Below are positions 22,459 through 48,698 of a DNA stretch of 64,000 nt, one piece after another (position 1 is the first letter of the stretch; every line of letters begins with the position of its first letter). The position numbers and the translations under genes are program-made. The DNA is from Ceratodon purpureus. Its lineage: Eukaryota > Streptophyta > Bryopsida > Pseudoditrichales > Ditrichaceae. The notes below the pieces were generated by a model. It searched no databases and was not told the origin of the DNA. It saw only the letters and a program-made list of their open reading frames with translations. The stretch covers positions 39,339,799 to 39,403,798 of the forward strand of contig CM026426.1 of assembly GCA_014871385.1 (NCBI GenBank). Reading direction: 5' to 3'.

Positions 22459-24026
22459 CTAAATATGTTTGCGATAACAACACTCTGGGATTTGGAAATT
22501 GTAGGGAGGGGCTATTACAGTAGCGTGGACCAACTGCAAGGTGGAGCGGCTCTTGGGATCGGGATTTGTGAGCTCCTTCAACGCCACCGCAAATCTAGCC
22601 GTCCTCGCTGTATCCTTGAAAAGGTCGATGTCGTCCTCGTTATCCCAAATCTTATTTGCTACCACTCCAACCGAGTACGCATCGGCAGCCTGCGTATATA
22701 GATGTCTCCTCCTTAGAGTTTCAAATGAGTTCTCCGAATTTGGCTTACCATAAGTGTACCACAACTCCGGAGCCACAAAAGTACCACGTTCCTTGAAGGC
22801 AGCCGTACGCGCCTGAGTAGTTGCGTAACCATAATTTGAAGGAGTTGTCTCACACACCCGACTTGCAAGGCCCCAATCGCATACTCCAATGTAAACTTCG
22901 CTCACTTTATCCTCTGGGAAGTGAAGCAAGACGTTTCCCGGGGAGATGTCATTATGCTGCAAATACCCCTTATGGACCCGGTCCATAATACAGATCAGTG
23001 CCCAAGCTAGCTTGGCCCTATGGGTGCGGAAGGCCTTAACACGGTCACGTGTTTCCATGGGCATATCGGTTTGCTTGTGGATGTTACGGTTCTGAGTACC
23101 CTCACCGATATTTGAATTGAACTTGTGCAGAAAATTCTGCAGGCAATCCCCATTCCACCAAAGCGTGTAGGCTTCCATCGTCCAGTCATTGACCGCAAAA
23201 AACTTAATAACGCCGGGAAGGTCAATCCTGCAAACCATGGCTTCTATTGATGTCTCGTACCGCTCCTAGGTCTCGTCAGGAGCCTTGGACGTCTTCCCCG
23301 CAAAGACACAAGTCTCAGGTATGGTTTGCATGCCAACAATACGTAATTTTCGGACTTTACCATAACCGCCTTCCTTTGTGCCTGACAACGGAACCAACTT
23401 GACCCCTCTTGGAACTCCAACCACTGCTCCCCACAAGTACTTCTTTATTGCGCTTTTCAGTCCAGCTTCAAGCCATGGCCTCACCCTCGTCCTATTACTC
23501 GAGAATCTTGCGCACGAATCTTGGACATATTTGAGCTTCTCTATCTCCTCCTTCTGGCACGCGAGTAGCCCTCCTTTGGCTTCTTGTTGACACACTCATA
23601 GACATGCACAATGTTCGTAGTGTTTGTTGTTATTTGTTGCTCCATCCACTTAGGGAAATGAAAGTAATGAATACAATCATTATATCTCTCGGAATTGTCC
23701 AGCTTCTTCCACAAATACTCTTCCAAATGGGTCTTCAAGTCCTTAATTCCGGTCTCCCCCTTCTCAACGTATGTACGAGTAATCATCTCCCGTCTCCGAC
23801 ATCCGTACCATTCCAATGCTAGCTCTCTAACGAAATCCTGGTACCCAGGAGGTGGGTAGTCCGGGTCCCTCTCACTTGCCGACTTCCGATTCTTCTTTCC
23901 CGATGAGCTCGATGACGGGTTTGAGCCTGTATGAGATGGTGCTGTGGAGGTTGCCATCACATCATCTACAGGAGCATCAAGATCTACGTAGGCGGGGCGT
24001 TTCCCGGATCCACGAGAGACCGACAT
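22459..24026 (-). pseudogene. hAT-borne protein kinase
   Basis: From ATG 24,026 the frame gives a Ser-rich N-terminus, a helical region (LALEWYGCRRREMITRTYV), then a kinase domain in canonical order. It has a glycine loop GGYGKVRKL, a beta-3 lysine in FAGKTSK, the catalytic loop LQHNDISPGNVLL (HxDxxxxN, near 22,950), DWG in place of DFG (near 22,870), GTFVAPEL for the APE motif, and DAYSVGVV for the subdomain IX aspartate. All catalytic residues are present, so the ancestor was probably active. This copy has one frameshift near 23,555-23,590 and an in-frame TAG at 23,266-23,268. It lies between array 1 and array 2 inside the hAT, on the same strand as the transposase. I know of no hAT family with a kinase; the substrate is unknown. 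Confidence 0.8.
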
Positions 24027-31732: not shown

Positions 31733-34047
31733 TCACGTGCCCGATGCAGAGGAACTCGATCCACCCTCATCGTGTTGTGCACGAGAGCTCCCCGCTGCAC
31801 TACTTTCTGCCCCATCGCTAGCGATCAGTTTCCGCTTCGCAGAACGGGTTCTCTTCGCTATGCCATCTCCTCCAAGCATTGCTTCCATGAAGTTGCTGTC
31901 GCACATTCGACAGAGCACTGTTAGGGTCTTCGGAGTATGTTGCGCGCATAGGAAATCCACGGCTTGAGCCTTGAACAAGGTATCCCATTCAGATTCCGCT
32001 GCTTGTAAGTCATGAGCGATCTGGAATTCCTCTTCGTTCATTTCGTGCAACTCCTTGTGCTGATCCGCAACCAGCTTCCCTTTAGTTCCACCTAAATCCA
32101 AGAGGATGGGCGCCGTACTGGAATGTATTGGTTTGAACATCCCAGTATCTTGTAGCACTTGGTAGAAGAAATTCCTCCTTCCCTCGAGTTCGTCCTCTGT
32201 CCCGCTCCTGATGAGTTCGTGGCAGATCCTCACAATCTCCGCAGGATCCTAGTCCCACCGCCATTGCGTGCTCATTTCTTTAGCATAGGTCTGGTGCATT
32301 CCCAGAAGCCAATTCCAAATCAAGTCCTCACCCCACTTGTCCGGAAAGTCAGGAGTATTTTCCTTATTTTGCTCCCAATGCGGTGGCATCCAGGTCGCTA
32401 AGCCGAACTGCTCATAAAAACGCTTGTGTAAGGGGGCCTTACATACTGTACACCACCGACGTATCATGGCGTGGGAAATCAAGCATTGTGGATGATACAT
32501 GCACTGACAGGATCCCAATGACCAGCCCCCCTCTGGCCCAAATGGATTGGTACAAATGGGACACTTGGTTCCATCCAACACATACTTTGGTGGATTGGGC
32601 CAGAGCAATCTTGGCTTTATACTACTATTCTCAGGGATCTTCCCTTTAGATTTGGCGGTCTTGCACTCCCACTCCAACTGCGTCCAATCTATTTCCTTAC
32701 CAATCATCGGTATGTCGTCAGGGAACATTTCATCTGGATCTGCCCACAAGGTAAGTTCGAAATCCCTCTTGGAGTTAAGCTTGAGGTAGTCGTGGTCAAT
32801 CCTCTTGAACTCACTGTACATCTGTTTGTAACGGTCAACGTTCAGAATGCATGCAATCTTCCATTGGTAGTACTATTTGCTCATCTGGATCAGATATGTT
32901 TTGAGCATCCCGTTGGTAGCTTGCAATTCGGAGACAGTGGGTACCGATGGCTGTTGAAATCCCAAAGAGTCCTCCGTCTCTTGAAAATCCACGAACATGA
33001 TTTGCCGCTGGGGGGGGTGCATCACTTGACTTGATGACGCGAATGGGATGATTGGCTTACGGGGAACTCGGACCGGGGTATCTTCCCGGAGACCGTGCGT
33101 GGCCTATTCAATGATGGCATTCACGTCTTCCTCGTTCATTCCAGGGCTACCAAGGATTGGAGCTTGGCTTGCCTCAGGTACGTAAGTCAGAGCCCTCGCA
33201 GATCGAAGTTGCGAAATCTCTTCATTCTGCTTCCGTATAATCTCATTCATCCTATCAGCTTCTTCGTACAAGTTCTGGATTGTCTTCTCCATCTCAGAAA
33301 TCAACGCATTTTTTCCTTCCAGCTCGTTCTGCGATGCATCGCCTTGCGGGCCCTGGGCATCAGCAGAGGCTATTGTAGCCTCCAACTCATCTGCAAACCC
33401 AGTGTCATCATCTTCCATTACATCACTCGGGCCCGCAATCTGTAAATTCAGTACAGGAGGAGCTACATCAACATTGCTCGGGCCCGCAATCTGTGGAACT
33501 AATGTAGGAGGAGCAACATCAACATTGCTCGGGCCCCCGACGATTGCTGGAGGAGCCTGATGAGGAATACCCGGTCCAGTAGGATTTGCAGGCGGTGCAC
33601 GATTCCTCGTCGACAAACAGGCAGCTAGCACAGGGTCCTTCTTTTTTAACCATGTGATTCTAGCACTAGTCGCTGCTCTTGTTTGTGACTGAGGGGGACA
33701 GTCTACCATACCATCAGAATCATTATCCTCCCCTGAGTCACTCCATTCAACAGGCGCATGATCCTCAGGATCATCCAAGTATGCCCAGTCCACACCTGGA
33801 AATCTTAGGACCCCTGTAGGTATCGCCATCTCATGTGGACGCCGCTGGACGCTAGGAGTCAACCGTATGGTCCTCCAATCCACCTGCCTATGAAGCACTA
33901 CCTCGGCATATACCATTCTACAAATAAAGAGCGGAACCTCATTTCTATCGTTCATCGCCTGGTTGTATAGAACCTGCCACACCTCCAAACACCGCCTCCC
34001 GAATTGACGGTTCTTGCAATATTTCATGTTCGCCTTGTTTGAAGTAC
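31733..34047 (-). pseudogene. hAT-borne RING-finger protein, main part
   Basis: The frame opens where the MULE cut it and gives FGRRCLEVWQVLYNQAM, a proline-rich linker with a repeated GPSNVDVAPP unit, a coiled coil (LISEMEKTIQNLYEEADRM), and then a RING-like finger: CPIC, CQCMYHPQC and CTVC (C-x2-C ... C-x-C-x2-H-x2-C ... C-x2-C) around 32,420-32,560. A helical region and a Ser-rich basic tail ending at TGA 31,733 follow. RING proteins are usually ubiquitin or SUMO ligases; that role is inferred. Three in-frame TAG codons (33,104; 32,873; 32,249) interrupt the frame, with no frameshift. With the 5' part at 48,690-48,930 the frame is exactly 852 codons including the stop. Confidence 0.75.
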
Positions 34048-34056
34048 GATTATTAT
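34048..34056. repeat. MULE target-site duplication, left
   Basis: GATTATTAT, identical to 48,690-48,698. Confidence 0.85.
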
Positions 34057-34319
34057 GGGGAAAGTTAGTATGTGAGCGGAGAGCGTAGAGCGGAGAGCGG
34101 AGAGCACAGAATGGAGAGCACAGAGAGGACTATTAGCTAAATTTTCAAAAGCAAAGTGGACCCTATAACCGTGGAAAATTACTAAATTAAGGCTTGATTT
34201 TGACACTTCTTTTAGGAAAAGAGTATTTTTATTGTGGAAATCAGGGTTCTCTCTGGTAAGAATTTATTACGTTTGTTCCCTTAGATACAAATTAGGGATG
34301 ATGTCATGATGACGTCATG

Positions 34320-34545
34320 CATACATTCCTTTAGATTTGTCATGGGTTTAGGCAAGATACAGTGATCATGCGTTAAGTTTTAGATCAATCAAATAATTCT
34401 TTCATAGGATTATGTAAATGCACAAGGAAAAAAACAACTTTCACAGAACCTAAAGTAGGCAAGGTTCGAAAACTTCCTGGAATATTTCAAATTTCGTGTA
34501 TAATATCTGAACTGCTGAAACCAAGATATACCTTGTTAGAGTCCT
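34320..34545. repeat. Diverged direct repeat, left copy
   Basis: ATACATTCCTTTAGATTTG, then TGGAATATTTCA and GAAACCAAGAT in the same order and spacing as at 35,228-35,430. The two copies bracket the small gene at 34,828. Confidence 0.6.
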
Positions 34546-34827
34546 TGTCTTCATCGAAGATTACTCTCTCTTCGTAGGCAGCGAAGCATCTTCATTTGAG
34601 TGATAGAAGAAGGAGATTTTCATCATGAAACAACACTTGGTAAGCTGGGTTCCAGAGAAGGAGGTCACTCTTGGTTTCTTTAGCTTGTTTCTAGGTGGCG
34701 TATTAGGATAGTGACACAGTCCTTGGCATTCTGTGATGTATGCGAAGGTAGCGTAGGAGTTCGGGGGGGTCAATCTGCAAGCTTGCGTGGAACGTTTTAA
34801 AACGACAACAATTTAGTCTGTTGCGCG

Positions 34828-35199
34828 ATGCCGAAGGTGTGTAATGCGAGATCGAGGAGGACGAGAGCGGCTGTAGGTTTGCCCCCAAAGGCACCGGCGA
34901 GTTATCAGGAGCTGCGGCCGTGGCTGTTGGAGGTGGAGCGCGCCAGAGAACGAGGCATGGACCTGCCACCGTTTAGGCACATCGGAAGCCTCCATGTTGG
35001 TGAAGGTGAATGGCGTTGGACAGTGCTTTGTACCAATGAGCTTCTCCGTATTATGGAGTTGTCCCTAATCCCGTATCCCTTGCTATCGAACGTCGATGAG
35101 AATCCAGTTGTTCAGCTGCCCGAAGTGATCATATCGGATGGCGAAACTTGCTGGTTTGATATGGACAAGAGTTGGACTGTATATCCTCCGAAGGATTAG
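34828..35199 (+). CDS. Small MULE-borne protein, 123 aa, unrecognised
   Basis: The frame is open from ATG 34,828 to TAG 35,199 and reads well: a basic start (MPKVCNARSRRTRAAVGLPP), a helix (ELRPWLLEVERARERGMDLP), then a mixed alpha/beta stretch WRWTVLCTNELLRIMEL and IISDGETCWFDMDKSW. I know no family. It lies on the plus strand between two diverged direct repeats inside the MULE, upstream of the convergent methyltransferase-like gene. Confidence 0.45.
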   Translation: MPKVCNARSRRTRAAVGLPPKAPASYQELRPWLLEVERARERGMDLPPFRHIGSLHVGEGEWRWTVLCTNELLRIMELSLIPYPLLSNVDENPVVQLPEVIISDGETCWFDMDKSWTVYPPKD

Positions 35200-35227
35200 T
35201 ACTGTGAAGTCTAGCGGGGTGTTCGAA

Positions 35228-35430
35228 TACATTCCTTTAGATTTGGTCATTTATTGGATCTAGATACGAGTATTCCTGCATGATGGTTTTAGATAATATA
35301 GAGGATTCTAGGAATAAGAGAACTCGAAACCAACTAAAAGAAATGGTCTTAAAAGTTCGTGGAATATTTCAGATTTTGTGTACAGTAATGGAGTAGCGGA
35401 AACCAAGATGCACACCAAGTCAAGAGTAGG
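35228..35430. repeat. Diverged direct repeat, right copy
   Basis: Partner of 34,320-34,545; ATACATTCCTTTAGATTTG at its start and GAAACCAAGATG at its end. Confidence 0.6.
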
Positions 35431-35713
35431 TAACATGGCTATGGAAATGTGGGATTTTCAATGATTAAAATATAAATTACCGCGCAATTTAAATTTTGAG
35501 CATTTCTTTTGTAACATTTCATTCTTCATATTATATTTTGAGCATTACAGTTGTGACATTTCATCCTTTACATACAAGGAGACGATTTGGAAATGAGAAT
35601 CGTAACAAGTTTAGGTTTAGGGTAGTAGAGTAGACGAAGGATTACGCAATGAACTCCAATTAAATCAAATCAAATCCAATGAAAACAACAATAGACCGAA
35701 GCCTACTTCAAAC

Positions 35714-38700
35714 TCACAACATGCTATAGTCGCTACTTTCACTCTCAGAACTAGATGACTCTGAATCTCCTTCTTCCGCCTCGTCATCGACGAATAGAAG
35801 AGCCCTGGGATCAAAAGTAGTTGGCCGACTAGGAACATATGTAAGGGCTCCAGATTGAAACGCCTGTGCTAAGCCCTCTGCGTAGTCCGGAAGTATGAAA
35901 GGCTAAATCGGGCTGGAATGAAGACGCCACGATGGAGTGGACACTGATCTTGGCCCACGTGGCGGTGTTGCTGAAACTACTCTGCAATAGAGAACCGATT
36001 GTGGTTAGATCGAGTACGTAGAGCTGCAAAGAGAAGTAATGCTTGGATAATTTGAACAAAGAGTAGAAGACTTACACCACTTTTCAGGTCTTGCTCTCTT
36101 TGGAGGCGCTTCGTCTCCTACTGCCAGCCTAGGATGTTTAGGAGGGCCCATGGCGGATGGTCTAGCCATGCACGGTTTGAGAAGGGCGTTGAATATGGCT
36201 TCGTCCTCCTCAAAAGCGAGAATGTGACGACCAATAGCCTGGGAAGCCTTGATGGAGGCCCCTGAAACTCGGAGAGAAACAAAGAAATGAGAAACTGTGG
36301 GAAAAACGAGAGGAATAATTAAGCAGAGATATGCATGAATAGTTACCTGTCCCAGCATTTGAATCAAGAACTATGTCGCCGGGCTTTGACAGCTCTTCAA
36401 TTTTGCCCTGCATCATCTCAGGGGATTTCTCCCTTGGGCCTCTCCACGGCACCCCCCCCATTCATGAGCTGCGATTCCAGATCGGTGAAGTTGAAAATGG
36501 CATCACTCTCGGTAATGTTGAGGAGCCCATGTATCAGCTCGGATTTCTTTGTTTGGAAGGAGAAAGTACTGCCGTTACGAACGTCGACGCGAATCCAGAA
36601 CCGCATAGTCTGCAGTCAAGCAAAACTAGTGAGTAAAATTAAGCGGAAGGGTTATCAATAAGTAAAGGGAAGGGTATGTTTAGGGAAATGACCAAGTTCT
36701 CGGGCTTCGTAGGAGAAGTGAGGCCGAGGACATTGACGCCCCACCAGTCCTTGAAAAGCACGTAGTCACCGCCATCAGCTTCTTCCTCGATATCCTTAGT
36801 CAGCTTCTGATCAGTGTTGTAGATGAGGCAGATGGCACCATCTTTCTGCAGGTAGTTATCTGCAAAACGGAAGATGTCGAACACATAATCCTTCTCGCGA
36901 GAGTTCCAAGGCGGAATACTCGTGGGGGGAACGGAAACGGATGGGACGGGAAGATTCTCAGGGATGTCGGCAATGATCAAGTCGACTCCCAGATGGTCCT
37001 CTTGTTTGCACCGGTCGGGAACTTCGTTTTCGCTGCCTGCTCCAAACTTGAGGAAACAAGAAAGGAGAGTTAGTAACTACATAGCGAGTAGAGGTGGCAG
37101 AATCCATTAAATGTCATAATATAGGAACAAACCTTGCGAATGAAGTCTTGAGTCTTGATCCAATCCGGGTCGCCACCTTTTCTCTCCTGTCTCCTATTTC
37201 GCCGCAACAGGGAATCCACAGATGAGTTGAAGACGGAAACATGTGTGGAAATCGAAGCTCCAGCGGAAGAAGTTGTTTGAGGATATAGTTTGGCCTTCCT
37301 CTGCTGAAGGAGACCTCTGGTGATCTCCGAAGCACTGATCGATGAAGGAGCCGGCGAAGAAGCTGGAGAAGGTTTGGTAACGACAACACCTGGAGACGGA
37401 TCTGGTGCCTTGTCAGCTGGCGCGGAAGACTCCGCACCAGTTTGCTGTGAGGCCTCTGACTGCGAACACAGAGATTTCAGTCGCCTTCCTCTCCCTCTCT
37501 TCGGTGGTGGAGCAGAAGACTGATCCTGCTCTCCTTCAGGACATTCCGCATCATCCACGGAGTCCTCCACCACAACCTCACCCCCATCGTGTAGAGTCTT
37601 GACGTCCGCCTCTGAGTCAATCGTGAAACCACGAGAGCAATCAAGATACCAGCATCCCTCAAGCAAGTGAGGGTTTTTGTACCTTTTGAGCTGTCGGGGA
37701 GAGTACATACACTGGTCCGAGGTTCTTGAAGTCCAAGCAGTAAAGAAGTTAGGCAGTTGCTGAACTTTAAGTGCCCCCTTCAGAACAAGCTCTCGCTTAA
37801 AGTACCTAAGGAAACCAATATGGAGAAGGTTAGTATGAGAAAGATATGTAGAGCTCATTATGGAATTTGAATATGATTAAGGGAAGTAACTTACCGGTAA
37901 GTAACCCGCTTGACAACCTCAGCGGTTCCAGGGAATTTAACGAAGTTGGACTTCTTGTCGAACACCTTCTCAGCATTCTTTCCAATGAACGTAGGGAAGG
38001 CCTTGTCCCATAATAGAATACGTGAACTCTCGACAAAATTGCCCGGCTCTTGAACATCAGGAAATGCCTTCCAATTGATAACGAGGTTCTCCGCCTTGCA
38101 TAAGTCCTCGACTTCGTTGATGACGGCTTCCTCCAACTAATATACAGAATATATATCAGTAGTAGTAAGAAAGATATGAGGGACAGAAGAATGGTTCAAG
38201 TCATGAATGAAGAACGCTTCATGAATGAAACTTACCCCGGCCCAGAATGAAGCTTTGTTCAACCAAGGGTCGAAATCGGTGTCCTTGAATTCAGCTGGCG
38301 GAAATCTGTAAGACTTTCGGGAAGTCGGAGATGAGTTCCACCACCTCAACCAACGAGCCTTGTACTTGGCCTCAACGGCCGCTGGAACAACCTTCTGAAG
38401 CTTATCGAGTGACATCTCAGGTTTGGGGTCTCACTATAATGCCGATTAATCTGCAACAAATGGAGAAGAGTTAGGAAATATGAATACAAATTTAAAGTAG
38501 TGAAAAGAAATACTTAAGTCAACTACGGTAAGGATATCACCTCGTTGAGGAAGTTGTCACCGTTCTTGGGATTTGCAATTGTCAAGTACTTGGTGAAGTC
38601 CTTCTTCTTAATGGATTCGACCATGTTGTTTGAAGCCGGTGTCATGGCATCCCAAACACCTGCTGCGGTTTGGTCTTCAATGGCTGTTTTCTCCTTGTAG

Positions 38701-39709
38701 ATTCTTGCAGCTTCGTCTGAGGCAGCCGTGAATTCTCTCTGGAAAACATAGTTATCTCCCTTTTTAGTACACAGACGAACAAAAATCAATTGTCGAATCG
38801 AAGTGTGAGAAAGGATGGATCAAGTGCTCACACAATAAAGAAACGCGATGAAGACTTTGGTTGGCAAGGTAAACCAGGATGGAGTAGATGGTTTATGATT
38901 CAAAGATATTTGATACTCCTCTGCTCTAAGCAGATCCTTGAATTCCTCCAATTTCATCACACCAAAAGAGCGAATCCGGAAAAGTTTAGCCGGAAGATTG
39001 CTCTTTACATGATCATTTTCTGTAGACCTGCACGAATAGACGGTAGTTAGTTAAATGCATAAACATCAACACGTCTGGCCAGAATAGAGGGGGTTCATAT
39101 TCTCACCAATTGATGTCGTGCATGGCATGAAGAAGGTTTCCCACATGTCCGCGTGGGTCAAGAACAATGCAGTGCACAGAGATGTGCCACGCTGGATCGT
39201 CGCTGTGATGCATGTTGATATGTCTGTACCATGCGGCAAGGCGATGGTTACCTTCCCAGACATAGAACATCTTCCCAGAAAACTCCTTCCAATCCGGGTC
39301 AGCCAAGAGCTCATCTTCGAAAGCATCATTCGCTTTTTGCCAACAGGGGCTCCACTCAGCCTTGATCTCCTCAATGACATCGGCTGTCATCTCTTCGTGG
39401 TTGTACATGGAAATGTACATGACTCTGTCTCCATCTCTATAGCCTTTAACAAACTCTCGCTCCAAATGTTGAACTCCCATTTCTCCCACAGGTCGCACTC
39501 TTGCCATTGAGAGCATTCGGCAAAGGGGAACTTGGATACGTGACTTCGTCTTTGGATGTACTCGGAGCTTGTTGATGACGCCATTGGAGTCTTGCTTGTG
39601 TTGTACCCGATGTCCCAATTCACTGTCCATTACATTCGTCAATTCACTAGGACAAGAGGGCGCTCGCAACGTATCCTGTGTCTGGGTTATCTGCCATAAG
39701 TCATACATT
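35714..39709 (-). pseudogene. ParB-like plus DNA methyltransferase-like protein, ten exons
   Basis: Exons (minus): 39,709-39,107; 39,027-38,832; 38,738-38,541; 38,415-38,236; 38,136-37,895; 37,805-37,133; 37,046-36,693; 36,609-36,347; 36,261-36,078; 35,981-35,714. All have GT-AG borders and matching phases. Exon 1 has a ParB-like box (MFYVWEGNHRLAAWYRHI; family form DGxHRxxAA). Exon 6 is a Pro/Ser linker with KRGRGRRLK. Exons 7-9 give a beta-class N6-adenine/N4-cytosine methyltransferase order: VDLIIADIPENLP at motif IV, DYVFDIFRFADNYLQKDGAI, EKSPEMMQGKIEEL, then KPGDIVLDSNAGTG and GRHILAFEEDEAIF at the SAM site. Motif IV has DIPE in place of the catalytic DPPY, so activity is doubtful. Exon 8 carries one extra G in a G8 run, and exon 10 an in-frame TAG (35,903). 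The start lies in an upstream exon not fixed; it could be the gene above it. Confidence 0.75.
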
Positions 39710-39829
39710 CTGAGGATCAAAAGAAAAATCAAACAATTATGAAGAGCAGTAGAACAATAGCTTCCTGTACTTATACATCTCGTTTAAAAAACAAATCATA
39801 AGCCACAGTAGGTAGTTGTACGTAGGCCA

Positions 39830-42788
39830 CTAGGTACGTGGAGCACGGCTATAGTACTCCCTAGCCTGTCTACAGTTCCAATGACGGCGCCTCCTCCAAA
39901 AACGCCTGGTCTGCCGGACAGGGCACGGCAGTATCGCCGGTAGGGCGAAGACAACATGGGCTGGCCTCCTCACTCTAATAGGCGAGGAACGAGAGGGTGG
40001 AGACATCGGCGGGGTACCAAGTCATGGAGAAGTAGGCATGTAGCCCGGGGATGTAGGCTCATAGACAGGAGATGTAGGCATGTACTGAGGAGAGTGGACC
40101 TCGAGAGGTCCACTACCTAAACCTACAGGGTTTCCTAAATCACATCTACATAAATGGGGCTGATCAAATGAATCCGAGAGGTCGGAGACATTGATCACTG
40201 TGATTGGGGAACTGATGGACAAGGGTGCATCTGAGAATACCTACAAGCATAGAGAGAAAGACAATGTCAATTTAAAATGCCATGTAATTTAGTTTAAAAT
40301 AATCTACAATGCCATGTTTATTACAAAATGCAAATACGATCAAATTACCTCAGTTTCTGCAGGAGTTGGGCCATCAGCTTCAGTCGCAGTAAGTTGATCC
40401 GTGAATTCCTACAAAACATAACATATACAGATTATAACAATTATGGAAAAAACATCATATAACAATAAAAAAACAAGAGTTGTAGTCAAATATGCCCCCT
40501 CCTCTTGAGTGGCATTTATCACTCAATGCCCCCTGGGGAGACTCCACTCCTTTGCGGCCATGGCTCGGTTCCCCTCCTTCTGGATGGCATTCGGTGCCGA
40601 ATGCGCCTCTCCCCGGGTCCAAGTGCTTGCAGCCATGGCGCGGTTCCTCGCGGCCCCCTCCTTCCCCAAAGCCCTCCCAGAGTCTTCCCCCTCCCTTTGG
40701 GTGGCATTCGGTGCCGAATGCGCCTCTGCCCGGGTCCAAGTGCTTGCGGCCATGGCGCGGTTCCTCGCGGCCCCATCCTCCCCCAAAGCCCTCCAAGAGC
40801 CTTCCACCTCCTTGTGGGTGGCATTTGGTGCCGAATGCGCCTCTGCCCGGGTCCAAGTGCTTGCGGCCTTGGCTAAAATCCTCGCGGCCCCCTCCTTCCC
40901 CAAAGCCCTCCCAGAGTCTTCCCCCTCCTTGTGGGTGGCATTCGGTGCCAAATGCGCCTCTGCCCGGGTCCAAGTGCTTGCAGCCATGGCGCGGTTCCTC
41001 GCGGCCCCCTCCTTCCCCAAAGCCCTCCCAGAGTCTTCCCCCTCCTTGTGGGTGGCATTCGGTGCCGAATGCGCCTCTGCCCGGGTCCAAGTGCTTGCGG
41101 CCTTGGCAAAGTTCCTCTCGGCCCACTCTAGAAGAGTATCCCCATCCTCAAGCTTTAACTTCGCGACCGTGCCTTGCGCATTCTCCACCTAAATACTTGC
41201 GGCTATGGCTGCAGTGAAATCTGCATCCCCCACCTCGCACAGCACGGCCCTGACTGCGGCAGGGTCAGGGTTTTCCACCTCGCACCTTGCGGCTATGGCC
41301 GGAGTAAGATCTGCATCACTCCTCTCGCCCATCACGGTCCTGACTGGTGCAGGGTCAGGGTTCTCCACCTCGCACCTTGCGGCCATGGCCGCAGTAAGAT
41401 CCGTAATCCCCACCTCAAACCTCGCGGACCCATCTCGTGCAGGCTCCGAATCCCCAACCTCGCACTTCGCAACCATGGATGCAGAGGGATTCGCAACCCT
41501 TTACTGAGACATTGCCTTCCTTTGAACTGCAAAGTCTGAATCCGCGACCTCAAATCCTGCAACATTCACCAAGCCCACATCTACAAAAGCCCAAGTCCGA
41601 TTACTTACCTCCTCTGTGGCCGTACCTCGGTCCGTCTCACCACCCGCGCTCTCCATCTCCTGCTCCGCGCGGTCCTCTCCACGCCCATCCATGTTCCGAA
41701 CAGATGCCTCCACTTCCAATGCCGCAAGTTTGAGTTCTGAAGTGCCCTCACCTCTACTCTTCCCTCGACTACCTCGACCTCTCCCTCTCTTTGGAATATT
41801 GAACCCTCTCCCTCGATCCGCGACCTCACCCACTTCACACTCGATGTTGACTTCGGGTCCCGCCAATGTATCTTGCGAATGATCTTCGTCTATACTCCTT
41901 TCCGATGGACTTCCCGGGTCCCCTCGTCCCGCCTGTCTTGCAGCTATTGCTTTGCCTCCTTCGCCCGCCTCCATGATTTCGCGTCTCGCTCTCCGAGCTA
42001 CTTTTATCAAAATATCAGTATCTGAATCCTCGCCCGCATCCACTTCAGGCGTCTTATCCTCTGCAACGTCTTGCTCATTCCTTAACCAATCGACAATCTG
42101 CGCATATATTTTAAAAATGACCAATATTACTAATCGGCTCTCCTATTTTAAACAACCATACAGTTCATGACGCATCAAAAATTTAAGTGTGGTGAAAAAG
42201 AAACCCGCAACATAGACAATACGTAAAACTTAACATAACTCTACTACAATGAACGTTAAACTTACTTTAACATACTTTACATGAAGCATATTTAAATGTA
42301 TCAATTATGAAACTTACCATATCCTTGTTAGACTGGTCGCCCGAATGTGTATCCGTCCCTCTTGTTGAACACTCCTTGAATCCAAAAGAAGGTTAAGGTG
42401 TCTCCAAAGTTGGACTGCAATTGAAACCTAATTCTTCCGTCATCTCTATCTGTTTTTCCCCACTACTTATTACCTCGTGCTCCTGAAGCTCAACTACGTT
42501 GTCCTCTAAAACCTCTTCTTTTACCTCTACTATGGACTCTAGAATGAGTTTACGAATGCTACAAAATTTAATTGTCACAGGCAGCCCAGCCCCTCGAACC
42601 TTTAGAGGTGCACTCAAGAGGTCCCCTTCCGACTTTGCCTTTCTACGTGATTCTCTCCTCCTCCTCGCTCTCCTATTCGTAAAATCTGTACCACATGGTT
42701 TTCTTCTAGGTCTAGGAGTGACATAAGTGGAGGGAGCTGAGCCTCCACTCTCCTTCATGTGTCTAACTAACGAGAGAACTGTCCCCAC
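39830..42788 (-). pseudogene. MULE-borne repeat protein with CTD-like heptads
   Basis: Exon 1 starts at ATG 42,788 (basic TNRRARRRRESRRKAK, then an acidic region) and ends at a GTAAGTTT donor near 42,317. Exon 2 begins at 42,097 (IVDWLRNEQDV) and carries RGRGRGSRGKSRG, two to three 30-residue units (MAARCEVENPDPA) and five 39-residue units (AASTWTRAEAHSAPNAT). A small exon follows (40,409-40,347, EFTDQLTATEADGPTPAETE). The last exon (40,240-39,830) holds three heptads YMPTSPV, YEPTSPG and YMPTSP, close to the RNA polymerase II CTD unit YSPTSPS, and a basic tail. In-frame TAA (42,393; 41,501), TAG (41,189) and TGA (40,523; 40,022) break it. A GAG|GTACT donor at the end would splice in phase to the methyltransferase exon at 39,709, so both may be one gene. 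Confidence 0.55.
40560..41130 (-). repeat. 117-bp coding tandem repeat, five units
   Basis: CCCGGGTCCAAG recurs at 40,612, 40,729, 40,846, 40,963 and 41,080, exactly 117 bp apart (39 codons). All six frames stay open across the array because the unit length is divisible by three; only the minus frame connects to the flanking gene. Confidence 0.9.
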
Positions 42789-43357
42789 AATATAGCTCTC
42801 CTCCTAACTTCCCTCTAGCTTATATATCCCAAACCATAACCCCCTGACTCAGCCCTAAATACTGACCTTATTCTAAACCTACTTAAATTAATGAAAACTA
42901 TATATAATTGCATTTTGAACTAAAGCTGATGAGATCAATCTATATAGGAAGAGAATAAACCAAGCCCACAAAATTTTAAAAGATTTGAATTAAGCACTGG
43001 AATACTTGTATTAAATATGGATGCAATTAACGGCTCATTCTAATCTCACCAAACTGCACATCGAATAGAATCGGTTCTACAATTCATATAATAAATAAGT
43101 ATTTCTAATAACTCCTACCATGTTAACTTGGTCCTGCAAAAAGCAACATTCTAATTAGTTAGCGCCGTCTCTCTTTAATCAATCATTCGTTACTTAACAG
43201 AATGAATCATTACCTAGTGGTCCACATGGACATTCCAACTAGAATAAAATGATCAACAGCGATGCATCATTCCTCTCACATTGCTCTCGCGATACTGCTG
43301 CGCTAGTACACTCCCTTTCTCCCGTCTACCTCTAGTATCTCTGAGTTGCCTGCGAAT
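42789..43357. promoter_or_regulatory. Divergent promoter region of the MULE genes
   Basis: A 570-bp AT-rich spacer lies between the minus-strand start at 42,788 and the plus-strand start at 43,358. A TATATAA element occurs on the plus strand at about 42,900 and TATATATTT-type runs near 42,820. It is inferred to drive both transposase and cargo. Confidence 0.35.
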
Positions 43358-46300
43358 ATGGGGATGGTCTGTCTGTATGCCCAAAGCATGGGTATCCCTC
43401 TTAGCTTTTGCGTAGATGACGATGGCCTAGCTACGGTGTCCTCTCTTCGCCTCAGTCTCAGATTCCATTTTCGTGAGGATTCCATCAGTATAGAGGAGGA
43501 GATCTTTGATGACGTTACTGCCGAGGTTACCCACACCCTCGGGCAACCTTCAGTGAGAGATGAGAACAACATATTGCAGTGGAGACTTCTCCCTAGGTCC
43601 TATAGAGTCTATGGTCTTACTGATTCTCTGATGGCTGCATCCACTAAGATCCTCACCCCCCGTCGCTCTTCTACTTGCACAATTCAGACTCACTTACCTC
43701 GTGATGTCAAGGTCAAAGTCGAGCCCGGTTCTGAGACTTCCGATGTAGAAAAACATCCTCCTCCGTCCGTCATATCCCTCTCCTCTGATGATGAAGTCAG
43801 TCCCGTCAAGTCGGTGCCTAAGGTCGACGCTGCTGCTCCTCCTTCCATTGTCCCAGGTCACAGTTAGCATTGTTCCGCTCCTTAAAGAGATTGCTAAGAC
43901 GCGTGGGTCAAAAAACATTTTAAAGAAGATAGACTATTCCACTATTAGACACGAGAGAGTGGAGTACTTGCCTGCGAAGTTTGATGGTCCGGTAGTTTTG
44001 GACTTGCCCCTAGCTGCTGCAGGATCCTCTAAGCTCGCCGCAAAGTCAATGCAGGGAATGGACAAACAATACGACGGACACTTGTGGACCAAGACCATCA
44101 CAACAAACATCAAAAACGACTTCGGACTATCTTTTCGAAGTTCCACCTGCGTCGGATGGCTGCGCTGCAGCAACAAGGAGTGTGACTTTCTGAAGCGTGT
44201 TCCCAAGATCTTCGAGGATAATGAGACTGAGTTTGAAGGGTGTACCCTCCAAGCTTTTCTAATGGATCAGCCTCCTCCATCTGACTCCAGGCTAGTGTGC
44301 AAGGTATGTAAAGAACCTCCATCATGTGTAGCTACATGCGAGGCTAGGATTTATTACGTAGTGGGCAAAGCCAATCAGACTAGAGCTTCTATTCACATAG
44401 GAACACATGATCATCCAGTGAAAGTTGGAGACTACAGAGACTCTAAAGCAGAGATTAGTAGCTTAATAGAAGAGCAGGTAGAGATGAACATCAAAGCAAC
44501 AAAGAGCGCCGTCGTCTTGGAGGCGAGCAAACTCCTCATCGGGAGCTACCTGCTATAGCCCGAGGATGCACCACCGAGGAAGCTTACGATGGAGGAGCTG
44601 GTTCCTGTTTTAGATCGTTGCAAAGACATGGCGTCACCCAACATCCGCAACAAAGTCGCCACCTTCAAAAAATTCAAAAGGTACGGAATCATGGACGGTA
44701 TCACCAAGCTCCGTGGAAACAGTCTCTGGGCGTATGTCCAGGAGAATAGGTTTCCTGGTCAGGGATCTATGCGTGACAAAGTCTTCCTCTTCAAGATGTC
44801 GGAGGTCGGCCCGGGAAGTGGTGTCGACTTGGTCAGCCGAATGCAAGCTGGTAGCGACTTGGAGAACGCATGGATCATGTTCGACCATGTCAAACGCGTC
44901 AAAGACTGGTCGACGATGGCCTGCCATGTGTACGACGCCACCTACTGCCGCGTGATGACAATCGCCACTTGCGACATGCAGTCCGAGGACACGGAGGCCC
45001 AGCTCGTCTTTTGGAAAAACCTGAACCTGGTCATGGAGATCAATGGCGTTGCAGCGCCGAACTTCAAGGGGTTCATGGCGGATAACGCACAGGCAAATTG
45101 GAATGCAGTGCGAATCCTTTACGGCAATGGCAACAAAGAGGACCCAATGGAGGACCGGGAGAGGTCGTGCTTGTTCCACTGGACTCAGAACATGGTGGCG
45201 TATACGCAGAAGCACTTCCCCGAAGAACTCTGGGAACAACTCAAGAAGATGTGCACTCAGTACAAGAATGCGACCAGCATGGCAGAGGCGGAAACTCTGT
45301 ACCACGCGTTGCGAGCATGGTGGGCATCCACCGGGGTCGTTGGCGAGAGCGGGCTCATCAAACTTGATCAGTGGCTGTCATTCTGGCACCACCGCTTCCG
45401 CCAGTGGGGGGGATTCATGACCGAGGTATTATTACGGCACTCTGTTTCCATGTTTTTGATATTGGTTTCCTAGCCCTAACCTACAAAACTGTAATCGGTG
45501 AATCTAACAGCATGTACTGTCAAATCTGCAGAAATTCACAAAAGAAGAACTCACAGAGATGCCCACCTGTAACCTCGCCGAAACAGTTCACAACAAGTGG
45601 CTCCAAGCTTCTGGAAACAACGGGAACAACCTGTACGTTGCTACCGTGGACGATTTCATTCGGGCATTTCTACAGGTTGTCAACTACTACCAGTTCCTCA
45701 AAGGTGACGTCGGCGGAACAGGACCGTCCAAGAAGGAACTCAGGCTCCGGATGGTTGAACGCAACGCGAAGAAATGGGGAAATCCTACACTGCTCGATAA
45801 GCCCATGCTTGATATGCCAGGCGCGGATGAGTTCTGCACCCGTCAGCCTATCATGCCTGGAGCGGAAGTCTTTGGTTCACAGAAGCGAAAAGCCGACGTC
45901 CTTATCGGAGCTGACGAGGAGTCTCATCGCCCGGACAAGACAAACTTCTCACGCCCAAGAGGCCCAAGACGTGCCGTCAGAGCTCAACCTATGCAGATGC
46001 CTGTCATTGTGGAAGACGACTCCGAACACGACCCCGAGGTAGAAGGTACCCAATCTCCTGCCCACGAAGTTGATTCCCCTTTACCTTCACCAGTGAACAA
46101 GGGCGGCATTTGCCATGTCAACGCGGTTGAAGAAACTAAGGTGGACGTGAAGGAGTGGCACATTTCGAGACTTCACAAACTTTCTGCGAAGTGCTGCTGG
46201 GCCCAAAGAGCTGAAACGAAGAAGAAGTGCACTGAGAGAATTGTCAGGGGGCCCCATTGCACAGCTGCCCCGACCTACACTGGGCTTTGGACTAACTACC

Positions 46301-47025
46301 GCAGGAACACAGTCGTGAAGACAGAGTTCTTCTTCTGCTCTGATGATATTGAGCGCTGCGTGAAAGGCTCTAAGCGGAAGTGCGTAGCACACTACTCAAA
46401 GGACCAGGAATTCCCCTCCATTCCAGAGGTCTCGCCAGTGAAACTAGGTACTAACCTAAAACTCACTGAGATTCTTGCCCTCGAAGCAGCGGGCTTTCAA
46501 CTTTCGCCGAAGAAACCGGTCTCCCCAAGACGCCTGTTCTCCTCTGCCCCGCCCCCTGCAAATCTCAGCTCGGTGCCAGTCCCTTCAGACGCTGACCGCT
46601 ACCCAGGCAAGAGAGACGGCAAGATGGTGAAGCGCACTGCCACTCGTCCCAATCAAGCGCAGCGACTCTCCATGGGCTCCTCCGAGTCTCTTAAAGCGCA
46701 CCTCCGTTCCGTCACCATGATACCTGAGCCGGGCCACGGTTGCATCATTGGGCTGGATTCGGGCGTCGCTCCACACATCACACGGTACCAGATTACCATC
46801 AATTCTTACCCTGGTTGCACTTGCCCAGCATTCAAGAAGACGATGACTACGTTCCGTGGCAAGACTCAGTTCACGTATTGTAAGCACCTATACTACATAC
46901 TCTTGAAGGTCTGCAACCGTGATCCCGAAGCCGAGCTTTTCATCCATGCGCCTACCTTCAGCTTCAACGAGGTCAAGCTACTCTTAGAGAGTGGAATCTT
47001 GCGTCACCCCTTGGCGAAGAAGTAG
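43358..47025 (+). pseudogene. MULE transposase with WRKY-GCM1 and SWIM fingers
   Basis: The start is ATG 43,358 (MGMVCLYAQSMGIPL). The N-terminus carries VKVEPGS, a sumoylation-type site, and VISLSSDDE, a SUMO-interaction-type motif. Next come a WRKY-GCM1-type finger (GWLRCSNKECDFLKR ... IHIGTHDHPV, 44,150-44,430) and the MULE catalytic region (YDATYCRVM; FMADNAQANWNAV; RSCLFHWTQNM). An intron at 45,426-45,531 joins TE to KFTKEELTEM in phase. The C-terminal SWIM finger reads CTCPAF...YCKHLYYIL (46,815-46,890). It ends at TAG 47,025. The frame is interrupted by a TAG at 44,557 (SYLL-stop-PEDAPP) and by a frame change near 43,850. Fusion of MULE transposases with WRKY-GCM1 fingers is a known association. 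Confidence 0.85.
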
Positions 47026-47267
47026 GTAGCCCTCCTACTTTAGAACTGCCATTTCCACAATGGCCATTTGTCACGTAGTGAATGATTTTAGTAATATACC
47101 ATGTACTAAGTCAGCAATACAGAAGCTGTATTGACTTTTTCATTATAAAGGTTTTGTTGTTGACATTGATTGCACTCTATTTCAAAACATTCTATCTTGA
47201 ACAAGTGCAGTATATACCTCGTATCCCCTGACATGTACCCTTTATTACAACAAACATATACTTGTTA

Positions 47268-47729
47268 TTAGATGTCATAATCTTCGAACCTAACACGTTT
47301 AGGGTTGCCCACTACACTATCAGCAGGACTGCCAGCCGCTGACTATACTACAGGAAAAACTACATTCGCATTCACTTTCGTTCCCACACTTGGAGCGTGT
47401 TCTTGGTACGAACGTTTCAGCAATGGCCCACCTCCCTGCCTCCAATTAACTGATTCCCTGGAATAAGTACCCTTTGGGATCTTTCCAACCTTCGAGTATG
47501 CATGTGGTTGCAAAGGCACATCTGCGTCCTTCTCTAGCACTATGATTTCATCCGAATTTTCTGAACGTGGAGGGTCAGCTCTTACATCCGGTTGCACGTC
47601 AACATCCCTTGTCAAAGGACGCCCTTGGCTGTTGGCCATCACTTCTTCTTCGTCCTCCACCTCAACATATGGTTGAAATGGACAAACATCGTCAGCAAGT
47701 GAAAAAACAATATCTCTGACGTCTTCCAT
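47268..47729 (-). pseudogene. Small acidic MULE-borne protein
   Basis: From ATG 47,729 the frame gives MEDVRDIVFSLADDVCPF, an acidic segment EVEDEEEV, SDEIIVLEKDADVPL (resembling a SUMO-interaction motif, EIIVLEKDAD) and GPLLKRSYQEHAPSVG. It passes through an in-frame TAG at 47,343 and continues sensibly to VGNPKRVRFEDYDI and TAA 47,268. It lies convergent to the transposase gene. Function unknown. Confidence 0.45.
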
Positions 47730-48480
47730 AGCTGCTGTCCCGCACTACGGAAAAGAGCTTCACATAACACCAACACAAAAGAGGCAGAGACATTCCCTAC
47801 TCTTATCTTAAATATCCCTGAAGAAGATGCTTGGCGCCCTTGAAAATCGGCTATTCATTCATTTAAAAGTTGTCATCCTCCTAAACCGAATGGAAAAAGA
47901 TGAAGGTTTAGCAGAGGTCATTTAGCATTTTAAAAAAATTGGAAAATGAAAATTAAAAAAAAAAAAACATTTATATAAATTGAAATTAAAAAGATTAAAG
48001 TAAAGAATAGCAATATTTAATATGAAGGTTGAAAATAATATGACGGAGATTAACAAATTGAATGTGAAAATAAAATGATTGTGAAAATAAAATGAAGGAG
48101 AGAATTAAATGAAAAGAGGCTTTTGACCCCTCTAACAAGATAGATATAATAAAGAAAATTTTATAAAAAATACAAGACAAATATCAAAAAAATTAAAAAA
48201 AAATAAGAAAAAGGAGAAAGGCATGCAGACTATGGTGGATGAATTCTAGCAATGCTAAGAAAATGTTACGAAATTAAATGTTACTTGATCCCTGTTCAGA
48301 GGTTCAATACCAATACATTTTAAGTAGTAATTTGCATATAAATTTAAGGAGATAATGGGAATTACTATATGCCTGAACTAGTTAGAAGGAGCTGGAGCAT
48401 AGTAATTGGTGCACATGAAAAATTTAATCACCAAGAAAAGAGAATATGAACTACAAATTCAATGAAAATACTGTATTTAG
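47730..48480. other. AT-rich inner right part of the MULE
   Basis: Strongly AT-rich, with poly-A runs and no credible coding frame. It passes into the right terminal inverted repeat at about 48,480. Confidence 0.5.
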
Positions 48481-48689
48481 TCCACGGTTATAGGGTCAAT
48501 AAAATTACTAAAATAAGAGTATTTCTAAAAATACACTAAGAATATTCGAATCTTCTAATTTTATAATTTATTTTTAGTTTAAAAAGTGCTATTTTTAGGT
48601 TTTGTCCCCCATTCTGTGCTCTCCGCTCTCCAAATCTGCGCTCACCGCTCTCCGCTCTGCGCTCTCCGCTCACGTACAAGCTTCCCTCC

Positions 48690-48698
48690 GATTATTAT
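48690..48698. repeat. MULE target-site duplication, right
   Basis: GATTATTAT, identical to 34,048-34,056. The ATT units continue a little further on this side. Confidence 0.85.

Follow-up and report, generated by a model that had tools for sequence, protein, structure and literature searches.

The window analysed here, a 64,000-nucleotide stretch of the Ceratodon purpureus contig CM026426.1, contains at positions 34057-48688 a transposon of 14,632 bp that is bounded by terminal inverted repeats and a perfect 10-bp target-site duplication. Two genes lie within this element on opposite strands, one of them transposase-like and the other an accessory gene whose product has an S-adenosylmethionine (SAM)-binding methyltransferase half at its C-terminus. 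A preliminary description of this DNA, made from its letters alone, had seen in the accessory product a ParB-like box joined to a beta-class amino-methyltransferase and had assigned the element to the Mutator-like elements (MULEs).

A transposon with two oppositely oriented genes

The ends of the element and its transposase-like gene were mapped as follows:

34047-34056, no strand: left target-site duplication CGATTATTAT, the same 10 bp lying outside both ends
34057-34125, plus strand: left terminal inverted repeat (GGGGAAAGTTAGTATGTGAGCGGAGAGCG...), aligned over 34059-34125, its first two bases added from the duplication edge
43307-47022, plus strand: transposase-like gene, from open reading frames (ORFs) and sequence
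48619-48688, minus strand: right terminal inverted repeat, aligned over 48619-48686, its last two bases added from the duplication edge
48689-48698, no strand: right target-site duplication CGATTATTAT, the same 10 bp lying outside both ends

The arms of the terminal repeats (34059-34110 and 48635-48686) are 52 nt long and 87% complementary, and they lie two bases inside the element ends. Among 200,000 randomly drawn pairs of places, with pairs less than 2,000 bases apart skipped, a shared 10-mer within 3 bases on either side was found in 16. MULEs make target duplications of 8-11 bp and frequently encode a SWIM zinc finger at the C-terminus of their transposase. The 10-bp duplication and the terminal inverted repeats agree with this class, and this part of the earlier assignment stands. 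The transposase-like gene has a SWIM-like CxCx(n)CxH pattern near 46813-46900 that scores below the Pfam cut-off (PF04434, 11.5 bits against 19.6, expectation value (E) 0.23), and no MULE family was recovered from Pfam. Since a matching transposase profile is missing, the element is better described as MULE-like than as a MULE.

The second gene is called transposase-like from its place and shape and not from a family match. Its first open frame, which presumably joins the second, spans 43307-43864; an in-frame stop occurs at 44556-44558, and a GT-AG intron was picked by eye at 45426-45531. Comparison of the transposase core with solved structures gave one match that looks like chance (E 0.13). 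No relative of the core was confirmed in genome contigs or in viral contigs, the latter by a short-pattern search that reaches close relatives only. Searching the window by tblastn with the 878 residues of the accessory product and with a piece of the transposase-like product returned only their own exons.

The accessory gene runs on the minus strand from 39708 to about 36078 in nine exons, with splice sites picked by eye. Exons 1-8 are joined by seven in-phase GT-AG introns of 79-125 bp into 878 stop-free codons; exons 8 and 9 are connected, in the methyltransferase motif I frame, by an eighth GT-AG intron (85 bp), and the nine-exon model comprises 964 codons. The in-phase GT-AG introns point to a once-coding gene of a eukaryote and not to bacterial contamination. 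The parts of the gene, in the order of transcription, are:

38541-39708, minus strand: exons 1-3, N-terminal region with the ParB box-II-like WEGNHRLAA, from the motif and a single phage tblastn match
37133-38415, minus strand: exons 4-6, middle region with a Pro/Ser/Lys-rich stretch, from open in-phase splicing
36693-37046, minus strand: exon 7, with VDLIIADIPE at the position of motif IV (DIPE at 36957-36968), from alignment with 13 phage methyltransferases
36452-36459, minus strand: run of eight G, site of the frame change, the spliced frame stopping just downstream
36347-36451, minus strand: part of exon 8 with motifs X and I of the methyltransferase (PREKSPEMM...KPGDIVLDSNAGT), in another frame than the exons before it, from the PF01555 match with exon 9
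36078-36261, minus strand: exon 9, methyltransferase motif II GRHILAFEEDEAIF, from PF01555 and alignment

The motifs named in the preliminary description were found in their places: EGNHRLAAW at 39229-39255 on the minus strand in exon 1 (there WEGNHRLAAW), DIPE in exon 7, KPGDIVLDSNAGTG from 36386 to the end of exon 8 at 36347 and on past the next intron, and GRHILAFEEDEAIF in exon 9; exon 8 also contains SPEMMQGKIEELSKPGDIVLDSNAGT. The 3' end formerly given, 35714, is uncertain. The last piece (35981-35714) lies outside the exon model and was dropped as a last exon, no in-frame join being found among those tried by eye. A start of exon 4 further upstream was likewise set aside; it seemed to need a frame change, which a later acceptor does away with. 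The single spliced product that had been described holds for exons 1-8, which join in phase, but does not form one open frame, as the frame change in the G run separates the frame of motif IV from that of motif I.

Several smaller features were seen in the element. Just inside the terminal repeats, a further inverted stretch around GACCCTATAACCGTGG was noted by eye (34142-34190 and 48470-48530). A third open frame, of 123 amino acids (34828-35196, plus strand), matched no Pfam family at E <= 1. An open stretch on the minus strand upstream of the accessory gene (40022-40240) ends in three heptads, YMPTSPVYEPTSPGYMPTSP, which we would liken to the tail of RNA polymerase II. Between the two genes, 117-bp tandem repeats occupy 40456-41157, which could serve the accessory protein as a binding array. 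VISLSSDDE (43770-43800, plus strand), in the first open frame of the transposase-like gene, presumably resembles a SUMO-interacting motif.

The two ends of the accessory protein

The C-terminal, SAM-binding half is confirmed by sequence comparison as an amino-methyltransferase of prokaryotic type, so that the presence of a methyltransferase-like domain in a eukaryotic DNA transposon is upheld. Exons 8-9 match the Pfam family N6_N4_Mtase (PF01555) at E 4.1e-07 with 30.6 bits, above the cut-off of 26.7, and a longer joined piece scores 27.9 bits. Joined exons 7-9 match DNA methyltransferase families of PHROGs, with E down to 1.8e-8. When a profile was built from 13 phage methyltransferases, exons 8-9 scored 46.9 bits, which none of 10,000 shuffles reached; this score and the Pfam score rule out a chance ORF. 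In the phage collection, 322 records match the methyltransferase at E <= 1, and these matches are distant over the shared stretch (best E 2e-6 among 20 matches listed). Matches to solved structures are weak, the best being CcrM at E 0.0058, and no relative was confirmed in viral contigs by the short-pattern search.

Exon 7, which holds the motif IV half, scored -0.2 bits by itself with the 13-enzyme profile, as high as or lower than 203 of 10,000 shuffles. Its VDLIIADIPE would be motif IV by position, order and the shape VDLIIADxP only. According to the exon order and the alignment with the 13 phage enzymes, motifs X, I and II lie after it; the order IV, then X-I-II is that of the beta class. 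The reading of DIPE instead of DPPY, already reported in the preliminary description, is correct; D[PL]P[YF] stands at this place in all 13 phage comparators. Motif I is also altered, with Asn where 9 of the 13 have Phe. Because the catalytic motif reads DIPE, we call the accessory protein a relative of N6_N4_Mtase by descent and do not class it as an active enzyme.

At the other end of the protein, WEGNHRLAA resembles box II of ParB, in which an Arg is conserved (GxxR). The only match of the N-terminal part among phage records at E <= 10 (tblastn) is a mycobacterial phage "ParB-like nuclease domain protein" (E 0.8), itself without a Pfam family at E <= 0.01. The two proteins are identical at 24 of 92 positions and collinear beyond the GNHRLAA box, this partner having been chosen as the best in the database. 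A profile of 14 phage ParB sequences, the mycobacterial partner included, scored 4.9 bits. As many bits or more were obtained with 8 of 10,000 shuffles and with none of the 126 other ORFs of the window (the query's own ORF excluded); in a separate run, 2 of 1,000 shuffles exceeded the true score. A subfamily profile of eight sequences, with the mycobacterial partner left out, scored 0.6 bits, and 127 of 10,000 shuffles as well as 3 of the 126 ORFs did at least as well. In pairwise comparisons, 12 of the 14 ParB sequences were equalled or beaten by at least one of 200 shuffles; the two that were not are a ParB-like protein of a Rhizobium phage and the mycobacterial partner.

Other weak matches of the N-terminal part were taken as chance, namely DUF6568 (E 0.23), phrog_22730 (unknown function, E 0.13) and one plasmid match, to an oxidoreductase gene (E 5). 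The middle region (exons 4-6) gave only a sub-threshold Pfam match to RITA (E 0.0048, 16.9 bits against a cut-off of 29), and for neither of these two regions did the short-pattern search of viral contigs confirm a relative. The GNHRLAA box is real and membership in the ParB family is unproven; "ParB-like" may be regarded as a lead that gains in likelihood from the algal architecture described below.

Known systems and rival explanations

Genes that combine a ParB-like part with an N4/N6-methyltransferase have recently been described in transposons of brown, red and green algae (PMC12477816). The example closest in description is Sola1-1_Ec32 of the brown alga Ectocarpus, a 21.5-kb Sola1 element with an accessory protein of 1104 residues encoded opposite the transposase. 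As in our element, a two-part protein with an amino-methyltransferase is carried by a giant DNA transposon and lies opposite the transposase, with 964 codons here against 1104 residues there. In contrast, the present element is MULE-like, 14.6 kb long, flanked by a 10-bp duplication and found in a host with plant-type transposons, and in this broken copy motif IV reads DIPE; the comparison is one of layout and description. The same source cites as similar certain proteins from green and red algae (Iyer 2011; Petroll 2025, Bostrychia) and reports that red algae have giant EnSpm elements in which accessory genes occur. These differ in host group and, for the EnSpm elements, in carrier. By analogy, the accessory protein is probably a further member of this algal class, in a new carrier and a new host group.

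Fusions of this kind are also found in viruses. N6_N4-methyltransferase is among the fusion domains of the ParB fold that are commoner in phages than in bacteria, according to PMC12704722. In our own scans, M.PhiCh1-I showed both domains, N6_N4_Mtase at E 3.4e-35 and ParB_N at E 5e-5 (23.7 bits in one scan, below the cut-off of 26.3, and 26.7 bits in another, above it), an example of a ParB-methyltransferase fusion in a tailed virus. As in the accessory protein, its ParB-like part stands ahead of the amino-methyltransferase, and its motif I-II region aligns with that of the window. The actinophage proteins prophiT49-1 gene 46 and Salvador gene 82, annotated as DNA methylases, likewise have a ParB-like N-terminus. 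Unlike the accessory protein, all three are 404-419 residues long, lack the long middle region (several hundred residues), and read DPPY. Other eukaryotic elements carry DNA methyltransferases that may mark their own DNA: PMC5890265 describes retrotransposon cytosine methyltransferases in dinoflagellates and in the charophyte Klebsormidium, one of the hosts thus being a streptophyte alga, and Dam-like adenine enzymes in DIRS elements. In contrast to the present element, these are retrotransposons, their cytosine enzymes come from the host and have an unrelated structure, and a ParB part is not mentioned there (0 occurrences). In a literature search with most subscription journals outside its coverage, the matches listed included no account of this class from streptophytes or from MULEs, and PMC12477816 was the only one among them to report a ParB-methyltransferase transposon class; ParB has 0 occurrences in PMC12695648.

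We propose that the locus is probably a large MULE-like cut-and-paste transposon with an accessory gene of the algal "ParB-like plus N4/N6 amino-methyltransferase" class, present here as a decayed copy. Where a relative is intact, its N-terminal part would be expected to bind the DNA of the element and its C-terminal domain to methylate amino groups of adenine or cytosine there, marking the element's own DNA, presumably to its benefit. Such self-marking, also put forward in the preliminary description, is not a new idea, having been proposed for such proteins in PMC12477816. Horizontal acquisition of the gene is plausible. With this proposal, the recently described transposon cargo of DNA-modifying accessory proteins of prokaryotic type extends to another type of carrier and to a host with plant-type transposons. 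If intact copies exist, it becomes testable whether eukaryotic transposons write N6-methyladenine (6mA) or N4-methylcytosine (4mC) on their own DNA, a question to which a single broken copy gives no answer.

Several results weigh against this proposal. No ParB family (in Pfam, PF02195) was listed for the N-terminal part in Pfam, NCBIfam or PHROGs with a limit of E 10, in scans whose HMMER filters drop most matches above E 0.1; of the two profiles named earlier for this check, N6_N4_Mtase alone came out above its cut-off. The single-sequence fold prediction of exon 1 was unusable (mean predicted local distance difference test score 38.7). Against solved structures, the N-terminal part matched phospholipase C best (1qm6 at E 0.0021, 2wxu at E 0.0025; next matches at E 0.33 and 0.79) and no ParB. 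We would take the phospholipase C matches as due to chance or composition, though this is not disproved. No transposase or MULE family was found in Pfam, either for the separate ORFs (limit E 1) or for the joined core (limit E 10). Sequencing error could account for both the frame change and the stop. One copy was analysed, from which neither the decay nor the function of the family is to be judged.

The missing ParB family, the phospholipase C matches and the poor showing of the eight-sequence profile would all fit an N-terminal part that is another, undescribed DNA-binding domain with a chance GNHRLAA, only the methyltransferase being of prokaryotic type. We regard this as possible, if rather doubtful: the sole phage match at E <= 10 is a ParB-like protein collinear past the box, the broad profile was reached by few shuffles and by no other ORF, and ParB is present in the published relatives. 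What remains of the earlier ParB label is one box, one weak collinear phage match and a published architecture, with neither a family match nor a usable fold. A host gene captured by the transposon would be a different origin altogether for the accessory gene. MULE-type elements are known to take up host genes. Pack-MULEs are mentioned in PMC12477816, but the methyltransferase is of bacterial or phage type, and that source reports such a layout from algal transposons of other superfamilies, so that we consider such a capture very improbable.

The remaining alternative concerns the meaning of DIPE. The preliminary description had suggested a SAM-binding reader, and the corresponding explanation would be a pseudoenzyme that kept SAM binding (motifs I, II and X), lost catalysis and serves the transposon as a DNA-binding factor gated by SAM. 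In its favour, the half with motifs I and II is well kept, the aromatic residue of motif IV found in all 13 comparators is absent, and exon 7 is not recognised by the profile. We nevertheless find this unlikely, as a single copy with its frame broken between motifs IV and I and with a stop in its transposase-like frame is more simply explained by decay, and as motif I is altered as well. Because of the frame change in the G run and the in-frame stop at 44556, what is left here is most likely a decayed relic, from which neither the accessory protein nor the transposase can be made in full. In a decayed copy DIPE needs no functional explanation, and it more likely reflects decay than a new function; the claim of a reader is not sustained, decay explaining DIPE equally well. 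It seems quite improbable that plant-type MULE-like elements carry a family of catalytically silent, methyltransferase-derived SAM-binding proteins that bind element DNA. Were this true, the family would represent a transposon-encoded reader or SAM sensor derived from a phage-type modification enzyme, a reading that goes beyond what one broken copy can decide.

Surroundings of the element

Scans of the window with Rfam (at the gathering threshold) and for transfer RNAs gave 0 matches. Two adjacent ORFs of the window are of hAT type (DUF659 at E 8.1e-33, and Dimer_Tnp_hAT above its cut-off), and a DUF4218 match was found at E 4e-28; we take these hAT-type frames and DUF4218 to be typical of plant transposons, which by themselves point to a streptophyte as the probable host. 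A protein-kinase-like frame (22462-23265, minus strand) lies amid transposon remains, its Pkinase match (E 2e-06, 27.8 bits) not reaching the cut-off of 31.7. Open frames close to the outer side of the left duplication occupy 31736-34027 on the minus strand, and one of them (32252-32872, minus strand) contains a RING-like stretch below cut-off (zf-RING_2, E 0.015). Since the first ATG of one open frame beyond the left duplication lies about 20 bp from it, the element was perhaps inserted directly upstream of a gene.

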